This document shows positions 22,019 to 47,940 of a stretch of 64,000 bases of DNA, piece by piece. A program made the translations under genes and the position numbers. Each line of letters opens with the position of its first letter. The first letter of the stretch is position 1. Source of the stretch: Symbiodinium sp. CCMP2592 (Eukaryota > Sar > Dinophyceae > Suessiales > Symbiodiniaceae); contig CAJNDT010005880.1 in the NCBI GenBank assembly GCA_905221615.1, positions 792,501 to 856,500 of the forward strand, given 5' to 3'. The notes under the pieces are model-generated. The model was not told where the DNA came from, ran no database searches, and saw only the letters and a list, made by a program, of their open reading frames with translations.

Positions 22019-22130
22019 CTAGGATGCCCAGTAGTACCCTTTTTCCCTTTTTGTAGTCCTAGGTTCCTTATAAAGTTACCCAATACCAAAAAGAGAGGCC
22101 TTTTTATTCTTAGGCTACTGGGTATCCTAG
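22019..22130. mobile_element. hairpin family H, 112 bp
   Basis: CTAGGATGCCCAGTAGTACC at the left and GGCTACTGGGTATCCTAG at the right. The flanks TGGC and TGAC agree at three of four positions. Confidence 0.8.
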
Positions 22131-22195
22131 TGACGTTCTTGTGTGAAGTGATTTGTCGAGTCGGGCTGCTGCAGATGGCTGAGCCGTACGTACTA

Positions 22196-22299
22196 AAGGG
22201 AACTCCAGAAAGTTGGAATATGGATTAATGGTAGGATCCCCTATAATTTGCCTTAAAGGGGGCTACGATAATGATATTCCAACTTCCTGGCTTCTACTC
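22196..22299. mobile_element. hairpin family C, TA flanks
   Basis: AAGGGAACTCCAGAAAGTTG at the left and CCAACTTCCTGGCTTCTACT at the right, TA on each side. The wider flanks both read CGTACGTAC, so the target lay in a short alternating tract or the flank was also duplicated. Confidence 0.75.
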
Positions 22300-22317
22300 T
22301 ACGTACGTACACACAAA

Positions 22318-22429
22318 CTAGGATGCCCAGTAGTACCCTTATTCCCTTTTTGTAGTCCTAGGTTCCTTATAAAGTTACCCAATACCAAAAACAGAGGCCT
22401 GTTTATTCTTAGGTTACTGGGTATCCGAG
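22318..22429. mobile_element. hairpin family H, 112 bp, TSD CAAA
   Basis: The same termini as 22019, exactly 112 bp, flanked by CAAA at 22314-22317 and 22430-22433. It lies 188 bp from the first H copy with a C element between. Confidence 0.9.
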
Positions 22430-22478
22430 CAAACCTCGAGGCCGTAATCTGCTGCAACACCCAAGCCCACCAGCTATA

Positions 22479-22587
22479 CCCAGAGACTCCAATATCCCTT
22501 AATTCAGGAACATACCTTAAATCATACTAGGGATCCTACCATAATTTAAGAAATATTCCTTAATTAAGGGATATTGGAGTCTCTGGG
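22479..22587. mobile_element. hairpin family A, TSD TA
   Basis: CCCAGAGACTCCAATATCCC and GGGATATTGGAGTCTCTGGG, near-perfect arms, 109 bp, TA flanks. Confidence 0.85.
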
Positions 22588-22632
22588 TAGGCCCTAGAAG
22601 CCGTGTGAACGAACGCTAGATCCCACCGCCTA

Positions 22633-22742
22633 ATATAGGAGCCTGAATAATTACCTATACTCCTTTGGTGTTTTTTTATCATCGTTATAGTATAGTATAA
22701 TGGGCCCCAACACCCTATTCTAATTATTAAGGCCCCTATGTT
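22633..22742. repeat. hairpin family G
   Basis: TATAGGAGCCTGAATAATTA at the left and TAATTATTAAGGCCCCTATG at the right around the GGGCCCCAACACCCTATTC block. Confidence 0.65.
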
Positions 22743-22978
22743 AAGAAGCCATAGACCTCACAGACCTAAGCCCCAAAAAACAACGCCCCAGAGCCCTCAA
22801 CGGCTTGGGAGGTAGCTTCTTCGGCGATCAACCTGGAAGACAAGAGTGGGCAGGTGGCCTGACGGTGTGGGATGTAGGGTTTCAGGATCAACTCAAAAGC
22901 TCAGGCTCAAGAAACCCAGTAAGTAGGTTACACTTGGGCTACAAGTCTCCCAAGTGAGATTACCCGAAGTTAGGCTTA

Positions 22979-23121
22979 CCCAGAGGGCCCAGTACATCTT
23001 TATGAAGGACTATAGCTTTAATTAATCATGATATGAAGCCTGGAATGATTTTCGATTTCTTCCGCACGAAAAACGGTTTCACATGTACACTCCCTAGAAT
23101 TATCGGGTATTGGGCTCTGGG
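22979..23121. repeat. hairpin family B
   Basis: CCCAGAGGGCCCAGTAC at the left and GGGTATTGGGCTCTGGG at the right. A broken family D piece precedes it (22918-22970). Confidence 0.55.
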
Positions 23122-23512
23122 ACGAGCTTCAGTTCTTTGTCCCTGCAGTTGAGGCTCCAGCCTGTACCCTATTCACCGGGCCCTGAAGACCCTAAAGACC
23201 GAAACTAAAGCTTAAACCCAAAGTCTGTTTCGTCGACTTAGGTCCAGGGTTTGATGCTACACTCCCACATTGAAAATGTACTGAAGCTTCTAGGAAAACG
23301 TCCTATTGGGGCCTCAATAATTACCTATTATACCATTTTGCGGGGTTCCTTATTCTAGTTATAGTATCAGCAGAAAAGTACATTGTGGAGGCCTGCGTTG
23401 TGCGGGTTTAGTCAAAGTAGACGTTCCATAAAACATGTATGATGAAATACGACGATGACTATCAAGCAGTAACCGCAAAATAACACTGATACTAAAACCG
23501 TGATTGACATAT

Positions 23513-23613
23513 GGGAGTTTCCGAAAATTTGTGGTTCCTTATTTTGGGGCCTTCATAATAAGGATCCTACTCTCTAGAGTACCATATTAGGAGCCCCTAC
23601 TTTCGGAACTCCC
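23513..23613. mobile_element. hairpin family E, 101 bp, TSD ATAT
   Basis: GGGAGTTTCCGAAAATTTG at the left and CTACTTTCGGAACTCCC at the right, with ATAT at 23509-23512 and 23614-23617. Confidence 0.85.
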
Positions 23614-23631
23614 ATATTCATGCAGTGAAAT

Positions 23632-23732
23632 GGGGGTTTCCGAAAATAGGGGACCCTAATATAGTACCCTAAATAGTAGGATCCTTATTATAAGGGCCCC
23701 AAATAAGGTACCCCTAATTTTCGGAAACTCCC
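23632..23732. mobile_element. hairpin family E, 101 bp, TSD AAAT
   Basis: GGGGGTTTCCGAAAATAGGG at the left and TAATTTTCGGAAACTCCC at the right, AAAT on both sides. It lies 18 bp after another E copy, inverted relative to it in the asymmetric core, yet each has its own duplication. Confidence 0.88.
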
Positions 23733-23999
23733 AAATGGACTAGACCACGCAACTGTTTTAAGGGATGCAGCCCTCCAGGCTGAGAGCTCGGCTCCTAAGC
23801 CCTCTCCCAAAAGGCGGATTGGGGGGGGGCAAAACAAAATCCAAGACAAACGACATTTAAAAACCCACAGACATAACTTTTTTCGCTTTTTTTGCGCCTC
23901 CCTCCCCCCCTTCTCCCTCCTGGGAGCCACCGGACCCTCTTCCTCCGCGCGCCACTATCCTGAAGCGGCCTCCTTCGCAGGGTAGGGCAGCCCAGTCCA

Positions 24000-24310
24000 T
24001 GTTCCGTGGTTTGGGTGTAGATGGCACTATTCTTGCATGCACAAAACCCAAACATGTTGCATCGCGCTTACATATGTGTGTGTACTTACATGTTCATATA
24101 TGTGTCACGAAAACATCTGCTTTTAACATGTCTGTATGCATTTCGTATGAGAATATCTTTTTGAAAATGTGTATGTGGATAAATGTAATTTTACGCGAAT
24201 CCATGTATCTGTTTTATGTGCGTATAAGAGTATGTATGCAAGTATGTATGTATGCCTGTAAACAATCAAGATAAATGAGCGACGGCTTTTATTTGCGTTT
24301 ATACTACAGT
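24000..24310. other. TGTATG-rich low-complexity DNA
   Basis: An AT-rich tract dominated by ATGTATG/TGTGTA words, free of telomere-like motifs. Frames through it read as Tyr/Cys/Met-rich strings and are not credible genes. Similar sequence recurs at 24540-24780 and 52740-53110. Confidence 0.6.
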
Positions 24311-24316
24311 ACTTTG

Positions 24317-24488
24317 AAACGAGATACCTCCGTGCAGTATTTTTGTTGTCGGAACTAGCCCTACTAGGGGAACGAGATAGGGGCGCCGCTTCAAACGAGA
24401 TCAAGTATATCTAGCACTATAACGATACTTGAACGAGATCGACTTTTTCTGCCAGTACTTAACATGATGAAACGAGATAGGGGCACCG
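24317..24488. repeat. cluster of AACGAGAT motifs
   Basis: AACGAGAT occurs five times in about 160 bp. Two copies are part of a longer direct repeat, AACGAGATAGGGGC(G/A)CCGC, spaced 100 bp apart. No function is inferred. Confidence 0.5.
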
Positions 24489-24879
24489 CCTCGAGATAGC
24501 GTAATTAGCCCGAGCAATAAATAAACGCAGTGGCTCAAATAGATAAATACATATATATATATATATACACATGCATGTATGTATGAATGTGTATGTATGC
24601 CCGCATATCCGAACGAAAACAGACATGCATGTACGTGTATACAAGGGTACAAATTGGGGCATCAGGGAAGTACATTCATGTATATCTCTATATGCACAGA
24701 TGCATACATGCATACAGACATACATGTATGTGTGTATATATATATACACACACGCACACATTTCGAGAGAGGAAGTGTGACGGTACAGCGGCCGAGAACG
24801 GGAATACGACAGAATGAATGCTGGCACTGCTCTACTGCAGCAATTGTTTGTGGTGTATGATTGGGGGCAACAGATAATC

Positions 24880-26260: not shown

Positions 26261-26678
26261 CAGGACCAACGAAACGTTGCATAACGAACAATGTGCAAAA
26301 CAAAGCAGTATGTATGGCAGAACCGAGCAATAATAGTGATAATGATTGTAGTTTTCGTTTCGTCGTTGTAACAGTTGTAACAGGGCACAAGTAAAGAACT
26401 TGTAAAATCCACTCGAACATATGCAAAATACTCGAAAAACAGTGCCTCCAGCAACCCTATTCTAACTGTTGAGGATCCTATACTAGAGAACCCTACTGTA
26501 GAGCCCTCATTATAAACCCCTTCAAGGTACCCTTTAAAGGAACACTATTCCAATTATCAAGGCCACTATATTACTCCACCCAGCCCTAAACCCTAAACCC
26601 AACCTTCGATTCATGGCGTGTTCTGCTTACTCTTCCTGGCTCTACAATACGCAGCTGCTGTAGTTGGTCGATAGACCT

Positions 26679-26941
26679 CCCAGAGAGCCCAGTACCCCTG
26701 AATTAATTTGGCAATATACCCTAACATTAGGGCTCCTTTAAAGGAGTTCCTATAAGGGTACTATAAGGCTTATACCGTAAAGTTAGGGTTCCTTTAAGGG
26801 GGCCGTTAAGGGCTTTCTCAGGGTTTTAAGGGGTTTATAGGGTTAAATACCCTTGATTAGGGAATATACCTTAAATCATAAGGGGCTTCATATCGAGATT
26901 TAAGCTACTTTGCTTCATTAAGTGGCATTTCGCTCTCTGGG
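26679..26941. mobile_element. hairpin family B, expanded, TSD CT
   Basis: CCCAGAGAGCCCAGTACCCC at the left and TTCGCTCTCTGGG at the right, CT on both flanks. The centre has been enlarged by AGGG(C/T)TCCTTTAA blocks. Confidence 0.6.
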
Positions 26942-27166
26942 CTTGTGCTTGATAGTCCGATTGTAGTGGAAGTTCAACAGATTGGCCTTTTTCGTCATTT
27001 ACGAACCGAGCAAACCAAATCCAAGTCTGATACGTCTAACATTGGGGTCTAACGAAGTAATGTCTACTAGTCCCTTGTCCCTCTAAAATCGCTGTAGTGT
27101 AAGATTCCAATAAGCCCTATTTCATTATTACGTACCGCCCCTATACTTTTCAATGCAGCTCCGGCC

Positions 27167-27180
27167 TTCGGCATTTTGGC
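27167..27180 (+). promoter_or_regulatory. TTCGGCATTTTGGC, possible spliced-leader relic or 5' element
   Basis: It lies 45 bp before the ATG of the ubiquitin-like/RCC1-like gene. It shares the CATTTTGGC core of the dinoflagellate spliced leader. The second gene copy has TTCGGCATCTTGAC at the similar distance of 53 bp. It is either a decayed spliced-leader relic, as expected if the genes were copied from mRNA, or a shared 5' element. Confidence 0.3.
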
Positions 27181-27686
27181 CATGGACTGATCAGAAGCGT
27201 GAGCCTCCATCATGTCGCTGACGCTTGATGTGAGCCTCATAAGTGGCAAGACGGTGTCACTTCAGACACACGCGGACGATTCTCTGGAATCACTGAGAGG
27301 TCGTGCGCAGAGAGCCCTTGGGGGTTGGGAAAGGCCGACTCTTGGACTCCACTGGAAGCGTCCTCGATGTAGGAGCACCGGTAAAGAAGGCCAGGTTGGC
27401 GCATGCGGAGCCGCTGACGCTGCAGGTTCGAAGAGTGGACATATGCTGTGGAGGGGGTGCTTTCGCTGCGATCCTGGGGGATGGCTCCGTCGTGACATGG
27501 GGCTATGCCCTCTCCGGTGGTGACAGCAACGCTGTGCAATCTCATTTGCAGAATGTGCAACAGATTCAATCAAATCATGGAGCAAAGGCAGCGATCCTGA
27601 GTGATGGCTCCGTGGTTACTGGGGGGCTTGCTAGCATGGGTGGTGATAGCAGTGTTGTGCAAGACCAGTTGAAGAATGTGCAGCAG

Positions 27687-27979
27687 ATTCAAGCAACTGA
27701 TTGTGCCTTTGCTGGGATCCGCCGTGATGGCTCCATCGTGACTTGGGGCAATGCTGATTTCGGCGGTATCAGCCGCGCGATGCGAGATCAGCTGCAGAAT
27801 GTGCAGCAGATTCAAGCAACTTCGTGGGCCTTTGCTGCGATCCTTGCTGACGGCTCCGTCGTCACCTGGGGCGATGCTGTCTGCGGTGGTGACAGCAGTA
27901 GAGTCAGAGATCAGCTGAAGAATGTGCAGCAGATTCAAGCGGCCAAGCATGCCTTCGCTGCGATCCTTGCTGACGGTTC
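27687..27979 (+). repeat. recent two-unit duplication within the RCC1-like gene
   Basis: 27687-27882 (196 bp) is nearly identical to 28113-28308, and its continuation to about 27979 is matched by 36769 onward. The block was therefore duplicated before the LINE landed in the second copy. The first copy serves as an uninterrupted reference for the insertion site. Confidence 0.85.
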
Positions 27980-28294
27980 CGTCGTGGGATGGGGCTGCGG
28001 AGGGAACAGCACTGATGTTCAACATCAGCTGAAGAATGTGCAGCAAATTCAAGCAACCAGGCATGCCTTTGCTGCCATCCTTGGTGATGGCTCCGTAGTA
28101 ACCTGGGTGGAGATTCAAGCAACTGGTTTTGCCTTTGCTGGGATCCGCCGTGATGGCTCCATCGTGACTTGGGGCAATGCTGACTTCGGCGGTAACAGCC
28201 GCGCGTTGCGAGATCAGCTGCAGAATGTGCAGCAGATTCAAGCAACTTCGCGGGCCTTTGCTGTGATCCTTGCTGACGGCTCCGTCGTCACCTG

Positions 28295-28308
28295 GGGCGA
28301 TGCTGTCT
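28295..28308. repeat. LINE target-site duplication, left copy
   Basis: GGGCGATGCTGTCT, 14 bp, identical to 36755-36768. The sequence outside each copy belongs to the RCC1-like gene, and the sequence inside is the LINE. Confidence 0.9.
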
Positions 28309-28376
28309 TTAAAATGTTTGGTGGAGCGACCAGCAGGATGCCCACGAATGGTCCTGCCAGCCGCCGTGGGAGTCCC

Positions 28377-28763
28377 TCAGGTCTCGCACGCATCCCACTC
28401 CTCGGCCACGCGCTCGGCGAGGGCGAGGACTCGCATCTCCCATCTGGCAGCCTCCTCGCGCGCCCGGAGACAGCGTTGGCGGAGGGAGCCAGTGGCACGC
28501 CGCCGGGCCAAAGGACCAGCCGCGCCGTCAGCACGCTCGTTGATGGCACGGAGCCGCTGCAGCGAAAAGAAAGCACTGCCACGCCATCCAGGAGGGGTCG
28601 GCTTGCCATGGCTAGGCACCCAGACGGCATCAACCTCGAGTCCGAGCGACCGCAACTGGGCTCGCAACGACCGCAAGAGTGTCACGTAAAAAGAGAGACA
28701 CCCACAACCATTCCAGGCATCAATCGCCGCCTTGCAATCAATCGCAATGACGCCCCGGCACAC
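28377..28763 (-). pseudogene. C-terminal half of LINE RNase H, out of frame with ORF2
   Basis: This frame continues the RNase H domain that ORF2 leaves unfinished. It reads RGVIAIDCKAAIDAW (an Asp motif), then VDAVWVPSHGK (the His motif region) and RAINERADGAA, and stops at 28377. ORF2 in the adjacent frame ends ...LLRAGVPGRHCD at 28738. One inserted base near 28765-28770 accounts for the break. Because both halves are otherwise intact, this is either a recent inactivating lesion, a programmed shift or a sequencing error. Confidence 0.75.
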
Positions 28764-31700
28764 CAGCTCGCAAAAGGCCTTGAAGACACAGTCTCAAACC
28801 CTCGAGCTCGGCTTTGTAGGGGGATTGATCTTCACCTTGGAGACCAAAAGCAAAGACCCCCCCTCCCTCAACGGCGACAGCGGCAGCAGCGACCAAGTCG
28901 AACGCGGAGCCGTCGGTGCCGAGCAACAGCACCCCATCCGGTGGCCACCGAAGTCGGATGTCGGCAGCGATGTCCTCCAGCACCTCACCAGGGTCGAGGA
29001 CAGGTGGAGCAGGCGGGATCTCAGGCACTGCAACAGCAAGCAGCCGCTCGGCCAATCGCGTAGTAGGCGGCCCGCAGGCGGCCGAGAGCGTGGTGAACTC
29101 CGGGCATCTCCAGAGCAGGTGAGGTCGGCTAGGCTCAGCAAGCCCACATCGGCATTGAGGGATGGCCTCCAAACCATTGCGCTTGGCCTTGTCCCATCCA
29201 CTGCATCCATGGCCTAGGCAAAGCTGTCGGCCAAAGGCGCCACACACAGCGAAATGCTTGCAATGTCCACGAAAAGTGCACAGGGTGCCATTGGCAATCG
29301 GCGGCAGCCATCCACCACGAGCCAGAGCCGGCTCAGTGCGATGGTAATCCCTGTGGACCCGCTGGCACTGAACCAGAGCTTCACGACGGTGCCAGTCCAT
29401 AACCCATTCACGCAAGACCTCAAGGCGGTCCTGGCCGCAGCGGAAACGCCGGATTCGGCCTTGAGCATCGACTCTGGAGATAACTCGGCCGTTCTCCTCG
29501 ACCTGCCACCCGAGCTCCGTGAGGATGTCCATGGCAAAGTGAAGATACAGCGGCCAAGCACGAAGGGCAACATCAAGAGGGGCCGTCTCCTGCCAAGCCG
29601 CCGTGGAGGTAGCCACCCTGGTAACTTCACGAAGCGCGGCCCACCTGCGAGAGAAGACAGGGTCGCAGTCGTAGCCGATGATTTCCAGCGCCAGAGGGCG
29701 AGCCTTGTCTCGGACACTCGTCGACCCCACGCGGCAGAGAATGTCCGCCCGCAGCTCGTTGGCCTCCGCAGCTGCGAGGCCACCAAAAGCGCCAGCCCAA
29801 GTCCACAAAGGTACCGCCAGGGACCGAAAAAGCCGCCGCCTGCACGCCACAGTCTTAGCAACGACCGAGGCAAGTCGGAGTCGCTGCCGCGCCTTTTGCA
29901 CCGAGAACCCGGCCAGCAAAGCGCGGCCTCCAGCATTGAAATCAAGCATCAAGCCCAGCACCTTGAGGACGGAGGTGGACTCGTAGCCAAAAGCTCGCAC
30001 CACACCTGCAGCCCAAGCACAAGAGGAAGGAGCAGCCACCTTGCACTTAGCACTGTCGCAGGAAAAACCCAGAGCACTGTCAAAGTCGCGGCTGGACCGA
30101 CAAGCCATGCCAGCATCCGCCTGCGGTTTCAGAAGCATGTAACGGTCATCCACAAAGGAAGCCGCTCGTACTCCAGGGAGCTGCTCGAGACGCAAAGCCC
30201 AAGCCAACATGACGGTCGAGGCGAGGAGCGGACTCAGCGGGCAACCCTGGCACAGTCCTCGAGCCGTCCTGTGCCAGCAGCCTCCGAGCAGACCTCCCGC
30301 CGAAAAAAGCTTGTAGTGCTCGTCGTAGAAGAGGCTCACCAAATCGCGAAACTGGCGCGGCGCGCCAAGCCGCTCCATCGCCATGTCCAAATCCTGGTGG
30401 TCGATGCCATCGAAAAATTTTGACAAATCCTCAGCGACAGTGACTCCTCCATCCATGCTGGAAACAAGCACTTGACTGACAACATCCTTGAGCGACCTAC
30501 GCGGCACTCCACCACTCGTCTGATGCCCAAGCCATGCCTCCGCCCAAGAAGAAACCTGCGAAAGCACCGCCCTCGCACCAATCCTATAGGCGATGCACAG
30601 CAAAGACAGCGGCCTGCAGTCACCGTTGCCCTTCGGGATGAGAGCAACACGCGAGTGGCGCCAGATGTGTGGCAACTTCTTCAGCCGAACCACCGCCTGC
30701 CAAAGACTCGCCAGGCAGTTCCAGAAATCCAGCGGCAAATGGCACCACAAATCAGCCGTCCAGCCGTCTGGTCCGCCAGCTTTTCCACACATGGTCTTGC
30801 CGATGGCAAACAGCTCAGCACCAGTGAAGGACAGCTCAAGATTCGCACGCGGCAGCTCCGGAAGAGAGCTCAGAGCAGTCGCAACGGCGGCATGGCAACG
30901 TCCTTGCCTGCGCGACCACCGGGGCAGCCACTGCTCCTCCGCCTCAGCAATGACCCGCGTCGGATGGATGGCGACCCGAGAAAGAAGCGGGTCCACCTCG
31001 CCAGCATTCTCAAGCTCCTTTTCGAGGCCGGAGCGACGCTTAACCCAAGCACACTGCGCCTTGTAGTTGAAGTCGATGCCCTGCCTCCAAGCAGCCACTG
31101 CAGACTCCAAAGACTCCTTCTCAAGCGCGGCCACAAGGGAATCCACCAGCCGCACAGCACCGAGCTCACCGCCATGCCGGAACTCCAAGAGCTCAGGGAA
31201 GGTGTGGCCCAGGAGCCCCAGGTCGGCAACAATGTTGCGCCGCAGCTGCGCGTCATGCTGGACACGGCGCAGATGGGCAAGTCGTCGTTGAAGGCGCCGC
31301 ATCCGCGTCAGCAAGAGGGACTCGGCGCCGGCAGCAGCTTTGTGAACATCACGTTCTCGGTGAGGTCGCCACGTAGAGTGCCGAGCACAACCATTGAAGC
31401 GCTGAGCTGGGCCAGCCATCGCCTGTTCAGCAGCACTGGAAAGGATGGTCCAAGCCTCCTCGACGTCCGTGGTGAGAGCCGCCTGGAAAGAAGCAGCTCG
31501 GGTTCGCCACACCTCCTCCCAGCACGAGGGCGAAACATCCGCCGCAGTAAGAGAGGCGCGAGGCGGACCAGAGAAACCCCGTGGGCCAGCGAACCTCATA
31601 TCATAAGCCGTGCCTCGATGATCAGCGATGGTCTCGAAGGTATGGAGAGCCTCCGCCGACAATTGCCGGGAAGCGAGGCCGAAGTCGATCCGCCTCAGCC

Positions 31701-32289
31701 GACTCGGAGAAGTAGCCGGGAGCGGGCCATACTCAAGAAAAGCTTCGTCGAGGCTTCGAACATCAGCACGGGCAGCAAGCTCCCAAGCGGCAGGGGCCTC
31801 GTCCAGGGCAACGTTGTAGTCACCAAGCAGCATCCAGTCAACACGCCGACGACATAGAGCATCAATCACCTGCCCACTATGACGAGAGGCAGCCTCAAGG
31901 CAACTCGCGTGGCCGTAGGTACAACCAACAATCACCTTACGGTAGGAGCCGTTGCGCTGGACCTCGAAGACCATGGCCACCGCCCTCGCTGCCTCCTCGA
32001 CACCCTCAAGCTGCAGCAGCTTGCCGGGAAGCTTGCTAACAATGGCACACCGTCGCATGGAATTGGCATCGGCAACACCAGCAAAGATGTCGAAGCCCTG
32101 AGCCCTGAAGCTAGCGACCACACGGGGCCACGACGGCTCGTTGACATCAATCTCCTGAAGACAGCAAATATCAAGGCCCTGGGACTGCATAACCGCGACC
32201 ACAGCCAGCACTTTACTCGCCAAGCTCTTGCCCACATTCATGGTGCCAACACGTGTCACTCGGCCCTCTAAAGGATGAGCCGCCGTCAT
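28738..32289 (-). CDS. LINE ORF2: APE endonuclease - reverse transcriptase - RNase H (truncated)
   Basis: It makes the target nick and copies the element RNA at the target. Residues ~1-240 are an APE-type endonuclease with GTMNVGKS, LQEID, LLGDYNVAL (~158), RRIDFG (~199) and ADHRG (~222; usually SDH). Residues ~490-760 are the reverse transcriptase: GGPDGW, VALIPKG, RPLSLL, AEDLSKFFDGID (first catalytic Asp), GLCQGCPLSPLLAS and FVDDRYML at ~716, in the position of YADD. RNase H begins at ~1126 (LGTDGSA, then AELEGL) but the frame ends early at 28738; the rest is in the next frame. The start is set by the ATG at 32289, which overlaps the ORF1 stop as ATGA. All visible catalytic motifs are present apart from the frame break. 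Confidence 0.9.
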   Translation of the reverse strand: MTAAHPLEGRVTRVGTMNVGKSLASKVLAVVAVMQSQGLDICCLQEIDVNEPSWPRVVASFRAQGFDIFAGVADANSMRRCAIVSKLPGKLLQLEGVEEAARAVAMVFEVQRNGSYRKVIVGCTYGHASCLEAASRHSGQVIDALCRRRVDWMLLGDYNVALDEAPAAWELAARADVRSLDEAFLEYGPLPATSPSRLRRIDFGLASRQLSAEALHTFETIADHRGTAYDMRFAGPRGFSGPPRASLTAADVSPSCWEEVWRTRAASFQAALTTDVEEAWTILSSAAEQAMAGPAQRFNGCARHSTWRPHRERDVHKAAAGAESLLLTRMRRLQRRLAHLRRVQHDAQLRRNIVADLGLLGHTFPELLEFRHGGELGAVRLVDSLVAALEKESLESAVAAWRQGIDFNYKAQCAWVKRRSGLEKELENAGEVDPLLSRVAIHPTRVIAEAEEQWLPRWSRRQGRCHAAVATALSSLPELPRANLELSFTGAELFAIGKTMCGKAGGPDGWTADLWCHLPLDFWNCLASLWQAVVRLKKLPHIWRHSRVALIPKGNGDCRPLSLLCIAYRIGARAVLSQVSSWAEAWLGHQTSGGVPRRSLKDVVSQVLVSSMDGGVTVAEDLSKFFDGIDHQDLDMAMERLGAPRQFRDLVSLFYDEHYKLFSAGGLLGGCWHRTARGLCQGCPLSPLLASTVMLAWALRLEQLPGVRAASFVDDRYMLLKPQADAGMACRSSRDFDSALGFSCDSAKCKVAAPSSCAWAAGVVRAFGYESTSVLKVLGLMLDFNAGGRALLAGFSVQKARQRLRLASVVAKTVACRRRLFRSLAVPLWTWAGAFGGLAAAEANELRADILCRVGSTSVRDKARPLALEIIGYDCDPVFSRRWAALREVTRVATSTAAWQETAPLDVALRAWPLYLHFAMDILTELGWQVEENGRVISRVDAQGRIRRFRCGQDRLEVLREWVMDWHRREALVQCQRVHRDYHRTEPALARGGWLPPIANGTLCTFRGHCKHFAVCGAFGRQLCLGHGCSGWDKAKRNGLEAIPQCRCGLAEPSRPHLLWRCPEFTTLSAACGPPTTRLAERLLAVAVPEIPPAPPVLDPGEVLEDIAADIRLRWPPDGVLLLGTDGSAFDLVAAAAVAVEGGGVFAFGLQGEDQSPYKAELEGLRLCLQGLLRAGVPGRHCD

Positions 32290-35200
32290 GATGTCACAGA
32301 AGCAGGTCTGCGGCGAGGATCACTGCGATGCAATGCTGCTTCAGCGGCAGCCAGCCTGGCGGTGAGCACCTCCTCAGGAAGACCGTGCGGCCCCCGCCTG
32401 AGGATCTTAGCAACCTTGAAGAAGCGCCTGCGGCGCGCAGCATGGGTGCCCTGTCGGGGCGGCACTTTGCAACACCTGCGAGACCTGATGGACTTCGGCG
32501 ACACATGTGTGAACAGATGGCAGCACTCCTGGCAGCTCCAAGCCTGCCGCCAAAGCACATGGCAAGTGCGACGGTTTTTCGAAGCAAGCACTGGCCACAA
32601 CAACTCATCGAAGCCGGGGAAGTCAGCACCGCTCGCCACTCGCTTCACAGCCCTCTTGTTGGCAGCGCACACCACACGGCTCCGGCGAGCGCTTCGGCGG
32701 CGCATAGCCTGCGTAGCAGCCAGCGCCTGCCACTGACGATCATTGTAAGAAGCATGTCGTTCACGACGATGCTTTGTCTTTTCCCTCTCAAAGACATGTT
32801 TGGAGATGCTGTCCCTCGCCTGAGCAGGAATGCCGAAGCGGCAAGCAGGGCATTTCCAGTCGTAACTGTCGGCTTGGATCTCGGCCACGGTAAGCCTCCG
32901 GAAAGGAGTGTCCACAACCCGCACAGATCCAGGGACCCCGACTCCATCGTGCCAGCGAACCAGGTGTGTCCGCCGGGCCGAGGAAACCACAGTCCTCGAG
33001 GAGTGGGTGTAGGCGTAGTCGCAGTGAGGACACTCAAACCGCGGTGGGCCATCACCAGTCACCAGCACATTTCGGCGGTAGCGCGGCTGAAGCAGCGCTC
33101 GTTGGCTTGAGCTAAGCGTCGGAGGTGGATCAGCGTCGGTCGTGGCTCCCTGAGGCCGTGCCGAAGAGCTCTGAGCACCAGAAGTGTGGCCTCCCAGCGT
33201 AGAGCAAGAAGACCGCGCGTCCATGGGCCTAGCCGACAAGCCCTTGCCACCAACAGTGCAGCCACCAAGTGAAGAGCGAGAGGAGCGCGCCGTGCAACCA
33301 CCGAGCGTGGAGGCGGGCCGAGTACTCACGCTGTCCTTGCCTCCCCCGCGCTCAGCCGGGTCACCGAGAACCGCCTTCACAGCCCCGGTGGAGGCCGTCT
33401 CCAAGGCGCTAGCCTCGCCCACAAGCGCTTGGTAGTGTCGGTCGGAAAACCACAAAGCCAAGGGCGTCTTAGCACTCGGGGCACCAAAGACGCGGATGTC
33501 GAACTCGCCCGGGTTCTCTGGGTGCGGCCTGAAGACGAACACCTGTTGAGCGAGCGTAGCAGCAGCAGCGGCAATTTCTATGCTGCCGCCCCATGCTCCT
33601 GGTTTTCCCAGTTTCATGAGGTAGGCTTCGAATCCTTCATCGAGCATGGGCTCCTGAGCAGCGCTCGGTGCGTCTCCTTTCCAAAATCCGGCATAGGAGT
33701 CTTGATGTCTCCGCAAATGAGTAACCACTACATTGCGGAGCTCTGCCGCGGATCGCTTGGACCTGCCTTGATGATGAAGGGCATCGGCCAGGGCCAAAAA
33801 CAAACACTCGCCACCTCCGGTGTTGTCACACAGCCGGAGCCCACCTGGAAGCAGCCGTGCGGAAGCAGAAGGAGCCTCCGACTTAATGCGCTTGTTGGCG
33901 CTATCGGCAGCAGCAGAGGGAGTCGGTAGAGATTTCCCATCGTCGAGGCGCGGTCGATCATCGCCCCCATCGACGGCCATGTCGGCCTCCGCGGGCTCAG
34001 CATCAGCAGTAACCGTGGCGACACGAGTCCGCGAGGTCTTGTGCTGCTCCTTAGCAGGGTCCTTGCGGGCAGGCTTGAAGACCTGCTTGAACTCCAAAGG
34101 AAGAGCCCGCTCCTTTCGAAAAGTGCGTTCACCACCGAGCCGCATGAACTCCAAAACTCCATCCTCGATCTCAAAGGTCATGAAATCAATCTCAACGCCA
34201 GCAGTGGCACGGAAGCTCCAAGCCGAAGCCCCTCGCCAAGGCGATCTGTCCTCGATCTCGACGTTCTCCAAACCACACTCGGTAGCAAAGCCCTGGACAT
34301 CCTCCAAGTCCCAGTCGCGGGGAACTCCAGTGACGCGCCATCGCCGGCGCACAACCTTAGGCCGTGCCAAGTCCTCTTGGGTGGCAACTTTGCGTACGCC
34401 CAACTGCCGATGGCCACGAGCAAGGCCGAAGTCAGCAGATTGAGCACTGCGGCGGCACCGTGCTATGTAAGCCGGCCAATCTTCGCCATCCTGCCAAGGC
34501 ACCCAATGCACCGTGAGCTGAGGCACAGCAGGAAGAGGCTGCTCGCGATGCATGCTAGAGACGAACCATCGCATGCCTGCACAACGTGAGCCCGACATGC
34601 TCATGGCCTGAGCAGCCTTGCTAGCACTAAGGCGGCAAAGCCCTTCAACAGTAGCGGAAGGGCCGCCCGGGCCCCGAACCAAACTCCATGACCACGAATC
34701 CTTGCAGCCCTGGCATGCTGCTTCGGCCCACTTCCTGAAGTGGGCCCCGGGGGCCTTTGTCATAGCCTGCCAAGCCTGCTCGCTAAGCCCAGCGTAAACC
34801 CAATCGGCGTGGACCCGAAGCACAACGGAATCCTGAGGCTTGGGCACCTGAGGAGCTGAAGCAGCGGGCTTCAGGCGAGGCGCATCGTCGCTCAAGTGAG
34901 CCACAGCAAGCGAGGTAACCCGGACCCGGCCTTGCCAATCTCCAGGAACACGTTGCAGATGCCAGTCCACCTCCGTAAAAGCCTCCCGCTCGTTCGTCAG
35001 AAGATCAGGAGGAACCAGCAGCGTAAGGTCAGGCCCACTGTCAGAGCTTTGCACAACAGTGCGAAAACACTCCAGCTCGTGAGCGTCAGTCACCAATGCT
35101 ACAGCATCCCTGCTCGGATCATGCAAGAAATCTGCAACAGTCTGCACCAGATCCGGAGCAGGAGTCCAGTCCTGCGGCCGCGGTTTCCAATGCTTGAACA

Positions 35201-36662
35201 AAACAGCGGGGTCAGAAGAGGAGTCCTGCTTGTTGCCGTTCCTCCCCTTGCCGCCCGATCCTTTGCCAGCCCCTTTGGAACGAGACTGGTCACGACCTTT
35301 GCCGTTGCCCTTGGCAGGAGAGCCGGCCAACGTGACCGCCCGCGACTTCTCAGCAAGAGAATCAACACGAAGAGCAGGATCAGCATGCGCCTTCTTCTTT
35401 GCCTTCTTTCTTGTAACTTCAGTCCAGCCGTCATCTTCAGCAGGGGCTGGGGCGGCACGCCCAGCATTCCAAGCATCCCATTCGGCTTGGGACCAAACCT
35501 CAGCCGGATCACGCTTGGCCTTGGCCTTGTTCCAGCGAGCAGCAGGCTTCCAGGAGGCAGCAAAGTCAGTCCCGGCGGGCTCGGGGGCCCAAGCCCTCGA
35601 ATAATCAACGGCACCATCATGGCTCCACGACCTCACTATCTTCTGCAAGGCCGTGTAGGGATCCCTGGGTCGATCCCACAGAAGCTGCTCAAGTTGCGCA
35701 TAGAGAAGCTCTGCCCCAGCATCAACCCCAGCATCGTCCTCGTCGGTGCCCCAATCGCTCAAAAGGCCATGCAGGCCCTCCAAGAGGCGCTCAGTGCGCT
35801 TACGGCGCGTGGCGTGGGAGCCACCAGCACCTCCACGGAAAGGGTCTACACCCTCAGCAGGCTTGGCCAAAACGCCTCCGGCCCCGCACTGCTTGTCATC
35901 GACACCACCATGCCTGGCTGATCCACCACCAGCCCCGTCATCGGCATCATTTGCATGCGTAAGCAAGCCCGGCAAAATGCGCGGGACAGCACCATCAGCC
36001 ACACCAAAATTCTGAGCACAAAGGCCTGGAACATCAACCCCAGGAGGGGAAAAACTGAAAGCAGTGACGTCGGCACCACCAAGGGATTGCGTCTGGCGGC
36101 CTCGAAGAGCGCGAGGAGGATAAATCGGGCAACCACGCCTCCGACATCCAAGCCCACGACCTCGAAGCACCCAAACCTGAGCAGGGCAGCGAACACCAAG
36201 TCGCCTCCGCCCGTGCTTGACGGCAAGCCGTCGTCGATCGGCAAAGCGAGCTGACCAAGCAACTGTACACCATACATCGCCAATCTGCTTGGACAGCTCA
36301 GGCTGATGAAGGGACTTTCGCTTCCTGCGGCGTCGCCTCCACCATTTCCTGCGAAACATGCTCCTGCCAACAGCGCGTGGCACTCGAGCCCCCACAGCTT
36401 CCACACCACTCTTGGAGCATGACCCATCAAAGCGTGGGCCACCACGAAAACAAAGCAGCACACCAGCTCCCGCAGCCAGCATGCGACATAAGGCCGAGTC
36501 CCGCCCATGGGCGCGAAGTGCCCTGAGACGAGATCTCGAAAACCATCGAAACTGAAACCACAGCAGGCCGGCTCCCACAACCAGCCCGCCCAGGATCATC
36601 AAATAGTGATCCCATCGAATTGTCATGAAAAGCCCACTGCCAATCATCCACAAGAAGAACAT
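32286..36662 (-). CDS. LINE ORF1: basic/low-complexity region, OTU-type protease, zinc fingers
   Basis: ORF1 of the LINE, up to 1,458 residues if the ATG at 36662 is used. The open frame runs on into the host gene, so the true start is uncertain. Residues ~1-60 are hydrophobic, then a basic stretch (MFRRKWWRRRRRKRK). Residues ~454-480 form a Gly/Lys-rich RNA-binding-like tract (KGAGKGSGGKGRNGNK). At ~945 an OTU cysteine-protease core appears: DNTGGGECLFLALADAL with the catalytic Cys, GGSIEI, and SDRHYQAL with His at ~1075. C2H2-like fingers follow (CPHCDYAYTH ... H at ~1210; CPACRFG). The C terminus is basic with CQECC. ORF1 proteins usually bind element RNA; OTU enzymes cleave ubiquitin chains, so this one may shield the particle from ubiquitin. 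The latter is inference. Confidence 0.8.
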   Translation of the reverse strand: MFFLWMIGSGLFMTIRWDHYLMILGGLVVGAGLLWFQFRWFSRSRLRALRAHGRDSALCRMLAAGAGVLLCFRGGPRFDGSCSKSGVEAVGARVPRAVGRSMFRRKWWRRRRRKRKSLHQPELSKQIGDVWCTVAWSARFADRRRLAVKHGRRRLGVRCPAQVWVLRGRGLGCRRRGCPIYPPRALRGRQTQSLGGADVTAFSFSPPGVDVPGLCAQNFGVADGAVPRILPGLLTHANDADDGAGGGSARHGGVDDKQCGAGGVLAKPAEGVDPFRGGAGGSHATRRKRTERLLEGLHGLLSDWGTDEDDAGVDAGAELLYAQLEQLLWDRPRDPYTALQKIVRSWSHDGAVDYSRAWAPEPAGTDFAASWKPAARWNKAKAKRDPAEVWSQAEWDAWNAGRAAPAPAEDDGWTEVTRKKAKKKAHADPALRVDSLAEKSRAVTLAGSPAKGNGKGRDQSRSKGAGKGSGGKGRNGNKQDSSSDPAVLFKHWKPRPQDWTPAPDLVQTVADFLHDPSRDAVALVTDAHELECFRTVVQSSDSGPDLTLLVPPDLLTNEREAFTEVDWHLQRVPGDWQGRVRVTSLAVAHLSDDAPRLKPAASAPQVPKPQDSVVLRVHADWVYAGLSEQAWQAMTKAPGAHFRKWAEAACQGCKDSWSWSLVRGPGGPSATVEGLCRLSASKAAQAMSMSGSRCAGMRWFVSSMHREQPLPAVPQLTVHWVPWQDGEDWPAYIARCRRSAQSADFGLARGHRQLGVRKVATQEDLARPKVVRRRWRVTGVPRDWDLEDVQGFATECGLENVEIEDRSPWRGASAWSFRATAGVEIDFMTFEIEDGVLEFMRLGGERTFRKERALPLEFKQVFKPARKDPAKEQHKTSRTRVATVTADAEPAEADMAVDGGDDRPRLDDGKSLPTPSAAADSANKRIKSEAPSASARLLPGGLRLCDNTGGGECLFLALADALHHQGRSKRSAAELRNVVVTHLRRHQDSYAGFWKGDAPSAAQEPMLDEGFEAYLMKLGKPGAWGGSIEIAAAAATLAQQVFVFRPHPENPGEFDIRVFGAPSAKTPLALWFSDRHYQALVGEASALETASTGAVKAVLGDPAERGGGKDSVSTRPASTLGGCTARSSRSSLGGCTVGGKGLSARPMDARSSCSTLGGHTSGAQSSSARPQGATTDADPPPTLSSSQRALLQPRYRRNVLVTGDGPPRFECPHCDYAYTHSSRTVVSSARRTHLVRWHDGVGVPGSVRVVDTPFRRLTVAEIQADSYDWKCPACRFGIPAQARDSISKHVFEREKTKHRRERHASYNDRQWQALAATQAMRRRSARRSRVVCAANKRAVKRVASGADFPGFDELLWPVLASKNRRTCHVLWRQAWSCQECCHLFTHVSPKSIRSRRCCKVPPRQGTHAARRRRFFKVAKILRRGPHGLPEEVLTARLAAAEAALHRSDPRRRPASVTS

Positions 36663-36754
36663 AACAAGGCAGTATGGGCTGCGCCTGGGAGAGATTTCGC
36701 ACTCGCCAACCGGCAAGCCCGCGTGCGCCTCGTGGAGGCACTCCCCGTGCACGC

Positions 36755-36768
36755 GGGCGATGCTGTCT
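36755..36768. repeat. LINE target-site duplication, right copy
   Basis: GGGCGATGCTGTCT, identical to 28295-28308. The RCC1-like reading frame continues directly from it. Confidence 0.9.
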
Positions 36769-37109
36769 GCGGTGGTGACAGCAGTAGAGTCAGAGATCAG
36801 CTGAAGAATGTGCAGCAGATTCAAGCGGCCAAGCATGCCTTCGCTGCGATCCTTGCTGACGGCTCCGTCGTGACCTGGGGGGACGCTGACGGCGGTGGTG
36901 ACAGCAGTGCTGTGCGAGATCAGCTGAGGAATGTGCAACAGATTCAGGCAAATAATGAGGCCTTTGCTGCGATCCTGGGGGACGGTTCCGTGGTGACTTG
37001 GGGCCGTCCTAGCACCGGCGGTGACAGCAGTGCTGTGCGACATCAGTTGAGCTACAGCTACAGGTAGACAAGCGTTTCGCCATGCATGACTCCTGTACCC
37101 TAAACCCTA

Positions 37110-37212
37110 AGGTAAAAGCCAGAAAGTTGGAATACGATTATCCTAACCCTTCTATGGTAAATTATAGTGTATCCTACCATGAAACCATATTCCAATTTTC
37201 TGGAGTTGCCTG
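37110..37212. mobile_element. hairpin family C, TA flanks
   Basis: AGGTAAAAGCCAGAAAGTTG at the left and CCAATTTTCTGGAGTTGCCT at the right. It sits 40 bp after the stop of the RCC1-like gene. Confidence 0.75.
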
Positions 37213-37690
37213 TAACCCTCTGCAGGAATCCTGCCGGATGGGTTGCAAGAGGAACCCTAATGCAGCAAGAGGAACCCCAATACAGAATCATCATTAATCG
37301 CCGATATTGTTCCTTAGGGTTCCTGAAATTATGTTATACTGTATATTCAACCTTTCAATCGGCTAGGAGCCTTTGGGAGTCTCGGAAAAACAGGCGACCC
37401 TGCTATAAGCCCAAAATAGTAGGCTTTGAAACTTAGGGTTTACGGGATAGAGTTCAGGGTTTTGGTTTAGGGTTAGGGACCTTGCTAATATAGACCCTCA
37501 GTATCAAGATCCTATTTCGAGAACCCTGGATTCAGGCACGCCCCTAGGTTGCTAAGAGTTCCCGTGTAGCGTAGAATGCCTGATCTCATGTCGATGATGG
37601 ATCCTTGCGGGTTTCCAACGGCTCAGTTGTTGATTGAAACACCCTCCAAGGACTGCAAAAAGTGCACGTTACAGTTATAGTTATAGTTTG

Positions 37691-39902: not shown

Positions 39903-40014
39903 CTAGGATGCCCAGTATTACCCTTATTCCCTTTTTGTAGTCCTAGGTTCCTTATAAAGTTACCCAGTACCAAAAAGAGATGCCTTTTTATTATTAGGTT
40001 ACTGGGTATCTTAG
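39903..40014. mobile_element. hairpin family H, 112 bp, TSD CCAT
   Basis: CTAGGATGCCCAGTATTACC and GGTTACTGGGTATCTTAG, exactly 112 bp, flanked by CCAT at 39899-39902 and 40015-40018. Confidence 0.92.
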
Positions 40015-40966: not shown

Positions 40967-41092
40967 CCCTAAACCCGACATGCCGCTTTCACCCGCGCCA
41001 TGGGCGCCACATCTCCGCCGAGTGGCGCTTGGCGCCCGCGAAGAGCCGCGAACCGTGGTGCCATGGACCCATGGATCCAAGGGTAAAAGGAG
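40967..41092 (+). CDS. possible exon ending at hairpin N
   Basis: After CCCCTCAG one frame reads CRFHPRHGRHISAEWRLAPA and then KSREPWCHGPMDPR. A GTAAAAG donor follows and lies inside the start of a family N hairpin half. The first codons still resemble telomere-like sequence, so the 5' border is doubtful. Confidence 0.38.
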
Positions 41093-43135: not shown

Positions 43136-43351
43136 TACAGCAACCGCTCCTTCGAGCTCTTGCAACCTAAAACCCTCGACCCTAAACCCTGGAACCCACA
43201 GCCACCTCCCAAACCGAAACCAGCGTAAATCGGCCGGTCAAGGGTAAAAGCTTAGACCTAAAGCAGCTTCAACCCTCCAGCAATTAAGAACAACCAGTGC
43301 CCTGCACCAAGCAACCAAGCCAGCCTGGATCCGAAATTTGACCAGCCAAAT

Positions 43352-43452
43352 GGGAGTTTCCGAAAATAGGGGTACCATATTTTTGGGTCCTTATAATAAG
43401 GTTCCTACTATTTAGGGTACCATATTAGGTTCCCCTATTTTCGGAAACTCCC
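43352..43452. mobile_element. hairpin family E, 101 bp, TSD AAAT
   Basis: GGGAGTTTCCGAAAATAGGG and CCTATTTTCGGAAACTCCC, AAAT at 43348-43351 and 43453-43456. Confidence 0.9.
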
Positions 43453-43548
43453 AAATCAGCAGAGTCTTAAGTCTTAGATCCTGCAGTCGAAGCCGACCTA
43501 AACCCGAAGCCCTAAACCTTACACCCCAACCCCCGGAACACCGCCGAG

Positions 43549-43587: not shown

Positions 43588-43654
43588 GTGAAGCCACAGG
43601 CAGAGATCGGAGTTCACATGGGGTTCAGCATTTTGTTTTGTGTTTATCTAAACC

Positions 43655-43815
43655 CCAAACTTTAAACCCCTAAACCCCTAAACCCCTAAACCTGAAACCC
43701 CTAAACCTGAAATCCCTAAACCCCTAAACCCTAAACCCCTAAGCCTTAGATCCCTAAACCCCTAAACCCTAAACCCCTAAACCTTCAATCCCTAAACCCC
43801 TAAACCTTAAACCCC
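43655..43815. repeat. interstitial CCCCTAAA/CCCTAAAC array
   Basis: About 20 copies of an eight-base variant (CCCCTAAA) mixed with AACCTGAAA and AACCTTCAAT. The variants recur in order, which suggests local tandem spread rather than telomerase addition. Confidence 0.8.
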
Positions 43816-43847
43816 TAAATTCCGTTTTGGGTTTAGGTCTGAGGTTC

Positions 43848-44425: not shown

Positions 44426-44529
44426 GACGAAAGTTATCTCTAATGTCATCCCCCAACGTCTCGTTAGGTATCGATTTTGGATGATGTAGAACCCGCACTA
44501 TACACAATTTGCTTGCGGGTGCTTGAAAG

Positions 44530-44952
44530 CAAGTGATGACAGAGTGCCGTCTGTGCAGAGAGGCGGGGGGCATTTGTGCACCAGGCTTCCGCAAAAACCA
44601 CGTCAGGACCGACCCAGCTTGCAGACTTTACGGGGTGGCGGAAAAGGCAACCGTGAAAGTTACCGCTGTGGCGAAGCCGCGGGGGAAGCCAACGCCGCCG
44701 AGAGGAACGCCTCCCTCTGACACTGCGCCGCAGAGAAAAGAGGTGGGGAACTCCAGTGGAGGCACTTCCTCAGGAACGGGGGGACGGTCGACAGGGCCGC
44801 CCACCACAACGACAGGCTTCGACCATATGGTACAGCATTTGACAAGAGGGGGACTACACTTGCTCTTTTCCTTGCGGTGCAGGGTTCAGAAGTTTACAAG
44901 AGGATGGCCGTTCTTCAAGGCTTCCAAGGGCATGTACTTGGAACTTCAAGCT
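44530..44952 (+). CDS. two exons with a 53-bp intron, Cys-containing unknown protein
   Basis: Exon one, 44530-44829, reads TECRLCREAGGICAPGFRKN and HVRTDPACRLYG, a possible metal-binding start, then a Pro/Thr/Gly-rich linker with TGFDHM at its end. A GTACAG donor at 44830 and the pyrimidine-rich ...CTTTTCCTTGCGGTGCAG acceptor at 44882 remove 53 bp. Both borders are in phase 0, and exon two (44883-44952) reads GSEVYKRMAVLQGFQGHVLG before a GTAAGC donor. The agreement of donor, acceptor and phase makes this the best gene model in the repeat-rich part. The Cys pattern C-x2-C-x7-C is not assigned to a known finger. Confidence 0.62.
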
Positions 44953-45439
44953 GTAAGCCCCTAAGCCCTACACCGCTTCTAAGACCTTAAGCCCAACATC
45001 CCTAAACCCAACATCCCTAAACCACCAGCTCGGAGCCTGTAGCAAACCTTTGGCCCTAAGCCGTCCCAGGCCTAAATTGCCTTAAACCCTGAAACAGAAG
45101 CCGGAATATTTACCACTATTGTTCGTTAGGGTTGCCTTCTCAAAGTCATAGCATAATGTACCCCCAACTCCTTCTTATTAATCTTAAGGCCGAGCCCTAC
45201 ATCAATCTTGGCCTGGCTTTTCAGAGTACCGAAGATCGTTAACCGTAAAGCTTCCGAGACCTTCTCCCAAGCCATAATCTCCCTAGCACCTAGTTAAACC
45301 CAAAACCCAAAACTCGATGCTTTCTTTTGGATGTCTGGAAAAACCCTTTAACTACATACTGTAAGCCTTAAAGCGAAGCCTTACGGAAATCCCATACAAC
45401 ACCGTTACTAAATGCCTTACAGCGTCCCAACTATAGGTC

Positions 45440-45642
45440 CCCAGAGACTCCAATATCCCTGAACTAAGGAACTAGGATGCCCAGTAGTACCCTTATTCCC
45501 TTTTTGTAGTCCCAGGTTCCTTATAAAGTTACCCAATACCAAAAAGAGAGGCCTTTTTATTCTTAGGTTACTGGGTATCCTAGGGAATATGCCTTAAATC
45601 ACAAGGTATATTCCTTACTTAAGGGATGTTGGAGTCGCTGGG
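45440..45642. mobile_element. hairpin family A with nested H, TSD TC
   Basis: CCCAGAGACTCCAATATCCC at the left and GGATGTTGGAGTCGCTGGG at the right, TC on both outer flanks. A complete family H element interrupts it. Confidence 0.85.
45472..45583. mobile_element. hairpin family H nested in A, 112 bp, TSD GGAA
   Basis: CTAGGATGCCCAGTAGTACC to TACTGGGTATCCTAG, exactly 112 bp. GGAA at 45468-45471 is repeated at 45584-45587. Removing the insert and one GGAA restores the AAGGAATAT of the A consensus. Confidence 0.93.
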
Positions 45643-45724
45643 TCTCCTAAGGCCCCTAAAGGCTTTAAGGAAACCTTTCTCGGCCCCAAGCCCTTCTAGA
45701 ACACGTGGTTGCCACTTGCCCTTT

Positions 45725-45860
45725 AGGGTTTAGGGTTCAGGGGTTTAGGGTTTAGGGGTTTAGGGTTTAGGGGTTTAGGGTTTAGGGTTTAAGGGTTTAG
45801 GGTTCAGGGTTTAGGGTTTAGGTTTAGGGGTTTAGGGTTCAAGGGTTTAGGGCTTGGGGC
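45725..45860. repeat. interstitial TTTAGGG array
   Basis: Mostly TTTAGGG and GTTTAGGGG units with occasional TTCAGGG. Confidence 0.85.
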
Positions 45861-46011
45861 TCCTTAACGGTTTCGGGCTTCGGTTTAGGGTCTTAACCCG
45901 AAGCCTTAAGACTCTTCAACCTTTCTAGCCCTAAGCCCCAAAACCCTTAGACCCTGAAGTCTTAAACCCTTAAACCCCCGACACCCGCTAAACAACTCCC
46001 AAAGCCCTGTA

Positions 46012-46122
46012 GTAAACCCCATAAAGTTGGAAACCGGATTAAGGCCATATAGTGCTGGGATTCCCTATACATTACTCTTAAGGATTGAGGAACTTAGGTT
46101 TCCAACTTTTGGGCCTCGACTG
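46012..46122. mobile_element. hairpin family C, TA flanks
   Basis: GTAAACCCCATAAAGTTGGA at the left and TCCAACTTTTGGGCCTCGAC at the right, TA on both sides. Confidence 0.72.
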
Positions 46123-46143
46123 TAATCCCTAAGGGCTCGACAG

Positions 46144-46213
46144 GGCGGCGAGGTCGAAGCGGTGCGGCCGCGTGGCATCCTCCGCGAGAAAGAGCGAGGC
46201 TCGATCTTTCTCA
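46144..46213 (+). CDS. exon, unknown protein
   Basis: It starts after GGGCTCGACAG, 21 bp beyond a C hairpin. The very GC-rich frame reads GGEVEAVRPRGILREKERGS and IFLR. The donor is not clear; a GC-type donor (GGCTTC) is possible. Confidence 0.48.
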
Positions 46214-46380
46214 GGGCTTCCTTTCGGGGTTCTAGAAGAGGGTTGGAGTTTAGAATTTAGTCTTGTTTCGGATTGATAGGGCTTCAGGGTCGTGGGGCTG
46301 TCTGTCAGACACTATAGGGGTTCCAACACATGTACCATCGGGCCATAAGAATACTGTACGGTCTCGGGCTTGCAGTTTAT

Positions 46381-46492
46381 CTAGGATGCCCAGTAGTACC
46401 CTTATTCCCTTTTTGTAGTCCCAGGTTCCTTATAAAGTTACCCAATACCAAAAAGAGAGGCCTTTTTATTCTTAGGTTACTGGGCATCCTAG
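46381..46492. mobile_element. hairpin family H, 112 bp, TSD TTAT
   Basis: CTAGGATGCCCAGTAGTACC and GGTTACTGGGCATCCTAG, exactly 112 bp, flanked by TTAT at 46377-46380 and 46493-46496. Confidence 0.92.
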
Positions 46493-46744
46493 TTATGTTT
46501 TCGAAGTTTGGGTTCGATTCAAGTTCAGGCTTTCTGATTTTTGGGGTCAGGATTCAGGATGTTCGGGTCGAGTTCAGATTTTCAGTTTAATGACTATGGC
46601 ATACTATGGGATTAGGGTCGTATGAGGATCTTCTCCAAGACTGCAAATCCTGTTTATTTAGGAATACCGTAGTTAAATTAGAAAGGGATTGTTAGCATGA
46701 TCTGTAGTATATTCCTAAATGAAAGGTGTTGGATTCTCTGGGTG

Positions 46745-46860
46745 AAGAGCTCCGCCAGGTCCAGAGAAAAATCGCACGCAGCTGGCAAAGGCGCGCGGGG
46801 AGGAGAACCGGTCTTCAAATCTTTGGGAACTGTGGGTAATATAGCGGGTCGGCATGATTA
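46745..46860 (+). CDS. possible exon after a decayed hairpin
   Basis: Directly after ...GGATTCTCTGGGT (a family A/B right end) two frames are open: EELRQVQRKIARSWQRRAG and KSSARSREKSHAAGKGARGG, the latter ending in TAA. It is GC-rich at the start. The product is unknown. Confidence 0.32.
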
Positions 46861-47699
46861 ACTAGTGACAATATTCACTGCAGCTCTCTTTGTAAGTAAT
46901 TATAATGTATTATACAGTTGCCCGAAAACATCATTTAGTACTGATATTTCCTTGTCATCCCCTGTCTGTTCAGCTGCAATACACCCCCAAATCTCTAATC
47001 TGTTTCTCATTGCCCCCCATACCACACAGAGATTCTATTTTCAAGGCCTCATCCTTGAGCAATAGTCTTTAACATCATGTTCAGCATCCGCTGGAATTTC
47101 AGGTAGTTTGCTGGATTGAGGCGTTTTGGAGTCTCTGGATGTGCCTTGATTACGGGCTTCAGAAGGATAGGGGTCCATTCTATAGCGGTCTTGTTGCAAA
47201 TTCGCGATCCGACTTTTGCAAGCCTGCATTGTTGTCTTTCAGGATTCTACAAAATTCCACGTTATGGATTGCTTTGGGGTCCCTTTGCTTTCTGAAGCTT
47301 CCATTTTCTAAGGTTCAGGGTTTCTGATTGGCCGGCTGCTTGATTGTAATCATCTAGACCTCTGACCTTGAACCCAACCTCGATCGCAATCCCTGAAGCT
47401 AAGCCCTAAATCCTAAACCGTGTTCCAAAACCACCCTTCCGCACAATCCCTGCGAGTTTAACCTTAACCGTGATTCCCGATCCCCTAACCCCTAAGCCCT
47501 CAATCACAATCCCAGAAAGATCCAATCCTGAACCCCGGATAACCTACGTTTTGAAGGACTCAGAATACAAGGAAACCATAAAAGGAAACCCTACAGAGGA
47601 AGGTTTCTTAGGGCTTCAGGTGCACCCTCAACCTATCAACCCCACAAGCTCCACAAGAAACCCTTAAACTCTAAACCCCTAAACCCAAATGCCAGACCC

Positions 47700-47808
47700 T
47701 TGGGTACTGCCCCCGCTCCGTAACAGTCAGATGTACTTACTCATATTTCTGTGTAGCCCTTAATATGACCCTGACTATAAACTGTTACAAGCTCGGGGCA
47801 GTACCCAA
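47700..47808. repeat. hairpin family J
   Basis: TTGGGTACTGCCCCC at the left and GGGGCAGTACCCAA at the right, with GTAACAGT / ACTGTTAC inner arms. Confidence 0.75.
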
Positions 47809-47828
47809 CCTAAACCCTCAATCACAAT

Positions 47829-47940
47829 CTAGGATGCCCAGTAGTTCCCTTGTTCCCTTTTTGTAGTCCTAGGTATCTCATTAAGGTACTCAATACCAAA
47901 AAGGGGGCCCTTTTCATTCCCAGGTCACTGTGCATCCTAG
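47829..47940. mobile_element. hairpin family H, 112 bp, diverged
   Basis: CTAGGATGCCCAGTAGTTCC and GGTCACTGTGCATCCTAG. Exactly 112 bp but with more substitutions, and the flanks (CAAT, CCTT) no longer match. It is the oldest-looking H copy. Confidence 0.85.

Follow-up and report, generated by a model that had tools for sequence, protein, structure and literature searches.

What are the six near-identical hairpins scattered over a 64,000-nucleotide stretch (hereafter the window) of contig CAJNDT010005880.1 of Symbiodinium sp. CCMP2592 (positions 792,501 to 856,500, forward strand), and how did they reach their sites? An earlier note on this DNA had described them as one family, here called H, and had attributed them to real transposition of a defined unit and not to local amplification. 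Our analysis supports this view: H is very probably a family of non-autonomous DNA transposons of Symbiodinium with terminal inverted repeats (TIRs), i.e. of miniature inverted-repeat transposable elements (MITEs). The features on which this assignment is based are listed below, with differences counted against the majority sequence of the six copies and target-site duplication abbreviated as TSD.

22019..22130, + strand: H copy 1, 112 bp; flanks TGGC/TGAC (3/4 match); 2 differences
22318..22429, + strand: H copy 2, 112 bp; TSD CAAA; 3 differences; right end CGAG
39903..40014, + strand: H copy 3, 112 bp; TSD CCAT; 5 differences; right end TTAG
45468..45471, + strand: TSD of copy 4, left GGAA
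45472..45583, + strand: H copy 4, 112 bp; TSD GGAA; 1 difference; lies within a copy of the CCCAGAGACTCC hairpin family
45584..45587, + strand: TSD of copy 4, right GGAA
46381..46492, + strand: H copy 5, 112 bp; TSD TTAT; 2 differences, 1 from copy 4
47829..47940, + strand: H copy 6, 112 bp; flanks CAAT/CCTT (2/4 match); 17 differences

Ends, length and target duplications of the H unit

Direct reading of the sequence affirmed six copies of exactly 112 bp, which align without gaps. The unit starts with CTAGGATRCCCAGTA and ends with the inverse of this start; 14 of the 15 terminal positions of the majority sequence pair with the opposite end, and in the copy at 46381 the arms are paired at all 15 bp. 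The closing CTAG that the earlier note had assigned to the family is exact in four of the six copies, while those at 22318 and 39903 end in CGAG and TTAG, respectively. When the window was searched for CTAGGATGCC with at most one mismatch, 13 sites were found, 10 of them ends of H copies, compared to 4.56 expected; none of 100 shuffles reached this count. Of the six copies, a generic hairpin scan picked up 46381 alone; the other five were missed because of a mismatch in the arm or the ends.

Five of the copies differ from each other at 1 to 8 of 112 positions and from the copy at 47829 at 17 to 22. These five are comparatively young, deviating from the majority sequence at 1 to 5 positions, and the copy at 47829, with 17 differences and non-matching flanks, is older. 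The unit contains open frames of 37 codons on the + strand and 36 codons on the - strand, and a translated search with the + frame, in which the candidates were limited to about 182-578 residues, found no relative.

The immediate flanks bear out what had been claimed for them, namely exact 4-bp duplications at four copies (CAAA, CCAT, GGAA and TTAT, all different), a 3/4 match at 22019 and decayed flanks at 47829, where a match of 2/4 is by itself no evidence of duplication. The chance of a flank match per site, estimated from 400,000 random draws of 112-bp spacings in the window, was 0.0056, corresponding to a probability of 1.5e-8 for perfect 4-bp flanks in at least four of six copies. Longer flanks of 5-8 bp matched in none of the six. 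Beyond the duplications the insertion sites are unrelated: compared in register over 100 bp, the flanks on either side are 18-36% identical in each of the 15 pairs. When 150-base flanks were run through BLAST, similarities appeared, but out of register; they stem from adjacent hairpin elements and from the DNA that separates copies 22019 and 22318.

Insertion into another hairpin element and class of transposon

The copy at 45472 provides the most direct evidence. Its flanks are parts of a different hairpin family (CCCAGAGACTCCAATATCC...). When the 112 bp and one GGAA were removed, the joined flanks matched sibling stretches of the CCCAGAGACTCC family in 23 alignment rows spanning the junction, several of which represent the same element on both strands. 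No gap was present in 12 of these rows, and in the other 11 the gaps lay outside the GGAA. In six of the 11 gapped rows the same difference of 22 bases in length lies right of the junction; it belongs to the host element, not to H. For copy 45472 the empty site thus proves insertion. Three more copies have perfect TSDs, the copy at 22019 has a 3/4 flank match, and 47829 is assigned to the family by its ends and length only.

Altogether, H has defined ends and a constant length, duplicates 4 bp of its target, occurs at unrelated sites and, in one case, was inserted into a pre-existing element. Like MITEs in general, the unit is short and without transposase, has inverted termini and TSDs of fixed length that differ between copies, and occurs at many sites with near-constant length; the precise empty site was found for 45472 only. 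By analogy with general cut-and-paste transposition, a transposase encoded elsewhere and acting in trans would bind the 15-bp ends, excise the unit and insert it at a 4-bp staggered cut, the repair of which would generate the 4-bp duplication.

The duplications also bear on the class of transposon. Tc1/mariner elements duplicate TA, and were rejected on the basis of the TSDs CAAA, CCAT, GGAA and TTAT. Likewise, piggyBac and other elements that insert at and duplicate TTAA do not fit, as none of the H duplications is TTAA. PIF/Harbinger elements produce TSDs of 3 bp and hAT, Mutator and Merlin elements TSDs of 8-11 bp; these were rejected since the matching flanks of H are 4 bp long. The combination of variable 4-bp TSDs and CTAG termini was not linked to any named family here. 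As far as can be told, H is a new, well-defined MITE family of an ordinary kind.

Exact scans for the 15-base terminus matched 14 times in viral_contigs and 46 times in genome_contigs. In 14 of these 60 matches, a sequence similar to the right terminus (4 or 5 mismatches) lay within 600 bases, never at 112 bp; the other 46 were not accompanied by a right-terminus stretch with up to 5 mismatches. We take all 60 matches to be due to chance. Internal H patterns gave no match in viral_contigs in one scan and a single match in another, the surroundings of which were not H.

Orientation, Introners and rival explanations

A profile of the six copies detected two diverged relatives in the window, termed H-prime:

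62058..62170, + strand: H-prime relative, nhmmer E 3.2e-11; left end CTAGGACCTAGAGTAG, right end indistinct
14269..14377, + strand: H-prime relative, nhmmer E 7.2e-8; left end indistinct; adjoins a coding-like fragment

Some points weigh against the assignment of H as a MITE family. Neither a transposase nor an autonomous partner was found in the Pfam scan, which covered seven open reading frames (ORFs) of the window only. Apart from 45472, the other five copies lack an empty-site match in the window. Finally, all six H copies lie on the + strand, as do all eight when the H-prime relatives are included (two-sided binomial, post hoc, 0.031 and 0.008, respectively), and this common orientation suggests a departure from what would be expected of a MITE inserting at random. 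Among 35 seeds compared, every non-H seed with at least five copies occurs on both strands (seed 13222, 6+/7-; 22477, 11+/13-; 560, 6+/3-; 43351, 5+/2-; 38536, 2+/3-), a comparison that was post hoc, with H picked first, seeds overlapping in family and near-symmetric seeds giving weak strand calls.

In a reading compatible with the MITE assignment, H is also a family of Introners, whose sense copies in genes are spliced out as introns. We regard this as unlikely, though far from negligible. TIR elements with 4-bp TSDs are already in print for the genus as Introners, as extracts of PMC9860276 on Symbiodinium microadriaticum show, with the 5' splice site drawn from the TSD and a family 1 example spanning 115 positions (LSRX01000224.1:86725-86839); a further paper on dinoflagellate Introners (Curr Biol 2023) is cited in the excerpted text of PMC11453091. 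In this scheme the 3' AG would be the last two bases of the element, the 5' splice site would come from the TSD, and the present copies would form a non-genic pool. H shares the genus, the TIRs, the 4-bp TSDs and a similar span with the S. microadriaticum elements, and the intact unit terminates in AG. Moreover, pyrimidines make up 52.5% versus 35% of the 40 bases before the AG, the higher value being that of the + end. The eight H and H-prime copies share the + strand with the ORFs containing RCC1 repeats (see below), while the non-H seeds with at least five copies occur on both strands. However, as far as the same extracts of PMC9860276 go, the S. microadriaticum elements are introns in genes with a TSD-derived 5' splice site, whereas the H duplications hold no such site on the + strand, and the likeness is one of anatomy. 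Introner elements of the dinoflagellate Amoebophrya, in the parts of PMC7789003 at hand, resemble H in having inverted repeats of 8-20 nt and direct repeats of 3-5 nt, but are largely non-canonical introns with variable motifs, while H has one terminus and one length.

Several results speak against splicing of the copies at hand. Exact removal, as derived here, requires a TSD starting with GT, GC or GA, which was found at none of the six sites on the + strand and at one of six on the - strand (22019, with its imperfect TSD), although this test is weak, as 0/6 is expected for random TSDs in about 29% of cases. Copy 45472 is nested in a different MITE. After rejoining, the flanks of the six copies are open over 59, 67, 42, 41, 63 and 55 codons, compared to a median of 68 for a null of 3000 sites outside 26500-37500. 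A codon-usage scan, for which three ORFs of the window served as training set, revealed no convincing exon at the six sites; weak coding segments nearby lie at 40976-41068, 44586-44825, 46135-46230 and 48762-49073. Pfam gave no families in the three nearby ORFs tried (44527-44961, 47959-48339 and 48691-49074). Accordingly, we would not class the six copies as Introners, although copies elsewhere may act as such.

A more specific version, which we consider rather doubtful, is that an Introner lineage has H as its mobile pool outside genes. In that case the 112-bp unit would become an intron when inserted in sense orientation into a gene at a suitable TSD, and the uniform orientation in the window would come from insertion in sense, or from selection, along a dinoflagellate transcription unit read in one direction. 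If true, H would be a countable source of new introns, with unspliceable insertions visible as by-products. Should a tie to Introners hold, the family would make it possible to measure the frequency at which intron-making transposons insert outside genes, and whether their orientation is selected; otherwise, H is one more ordinary MITE in hairpin-rich DNA. In either case, the window holds a comparatively young MITE family of a coral-symbiont alga with clean 4-bp TSDs and an empty site.

Two further explanations were considered. Duplication of a single ancestral hairpin, in tandem or as part of a segment, would account for the proximity of some copies, the starts of which are 299, 909 and 1448 bp apart, and for their single orientation, but it is contradicted by flanks that are unrelated in register, by perfect TSDs that all differ and by the empty site at 45472, and we consider it extremely improbable. 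Retention of H as a structured RNA, such as a small RNA gene or a short interspersed nuclear element, is also very improbable. DNA folding of four of the six copies gave z scores of -3.53, -3.19, -4.50 and -2.55, the last for 47829, for which 4 of 200 shuffles folded equally well; the folded copies thus beat most or all shuffles, and the uniform orientation would likewise fit an RNA. Against this, no Rfam family reached threshold in the window, no poly-A tail was seen by eye in the six copies, and the pairing of H is concentrated at the ends, as needed for transposon termini.

Surroundings of the H copies in the window

The coding-like fragment that adjoins one H-prime relative (13875-14276, + strand) shares 62-71% identity with five of nine predicted relatives, several of which are named as proteins of Symbiodinium, and this similarity stops at the start of H-prime. 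At first sight H-prime resembled an intron at this position, but no intron is claimed: the relatives of the adjoining stretch continue in a manner that, judged by eye, was not seen past the element. Judging by their motifs, these relatives may represent a dinoRNAV-type viral polymerase. Pfam detected no families in the two relatives scanned. Endogenous dinoRNAV elements in Symbiodinium are treated in the extracted sections of PMC10235124.

ORFs resembling those of a long interspersed nuclear element (LINE) extend over 28741-37106 on the - strand, with a reverse transcriptase match (RVT_1, E 6.1e-17) and an endonuclease match slightly below the cut-off; a 1606-residue frame among them contains an OTU protease domain (E 5.1e-10). 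One of these ORFs (28741-32319, - strand) matches a protein of Symbiodinium sp. CCMP2592 with 100% identity across 94% of the query, in keeping with Symbiodinium as the host; PMC10522408 places this strain under S. tridacnidorum; a table row in the portion of PMC10235124 at hand reads 'Symbiodinium sp. A5 (formerly S. tridacnidorum)'. The LINE-like ORFs sit between two RCC1-type repeat arrays, as if inserted into such a gene. Arrays of a 123-bp unit occupy 27461-28348, 36716-37138 and 62930-64000, and RCC1 repeats were detected in the + strand ORFs 27297-29060 and 62676-63998 (RCC1_2, E 2.8e-15 and 3.8e-26, respectively).

Further hairpin families of about 100-130 bp occur at many places and in both orientations, for example at 22477-22589, 13222-13351 and 43351-43453, and H copy 45472 was inserted into a member of one of these families. 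These families (TACCCAGAGACTCC, TACTTAGAGG, TATGGGAGTTTCC) resemble H in size, inverted repeats and interspersed distribution, but TA...TA ends occur in several copies and both orientations are found, in contrast to the variable 4-bp TSDs and single orientation of H. They may be of mariner type. Degenerate telomere-like TTTAGGG and CCCTAAA tracts are distributed in both orientations over the whole window, e.g. at 6993-7149 and 43638-43831, and a long trinucleotide-rich low-complexity stretch of the GTA/GTG type, open in several frames, is located at 19860-20290.

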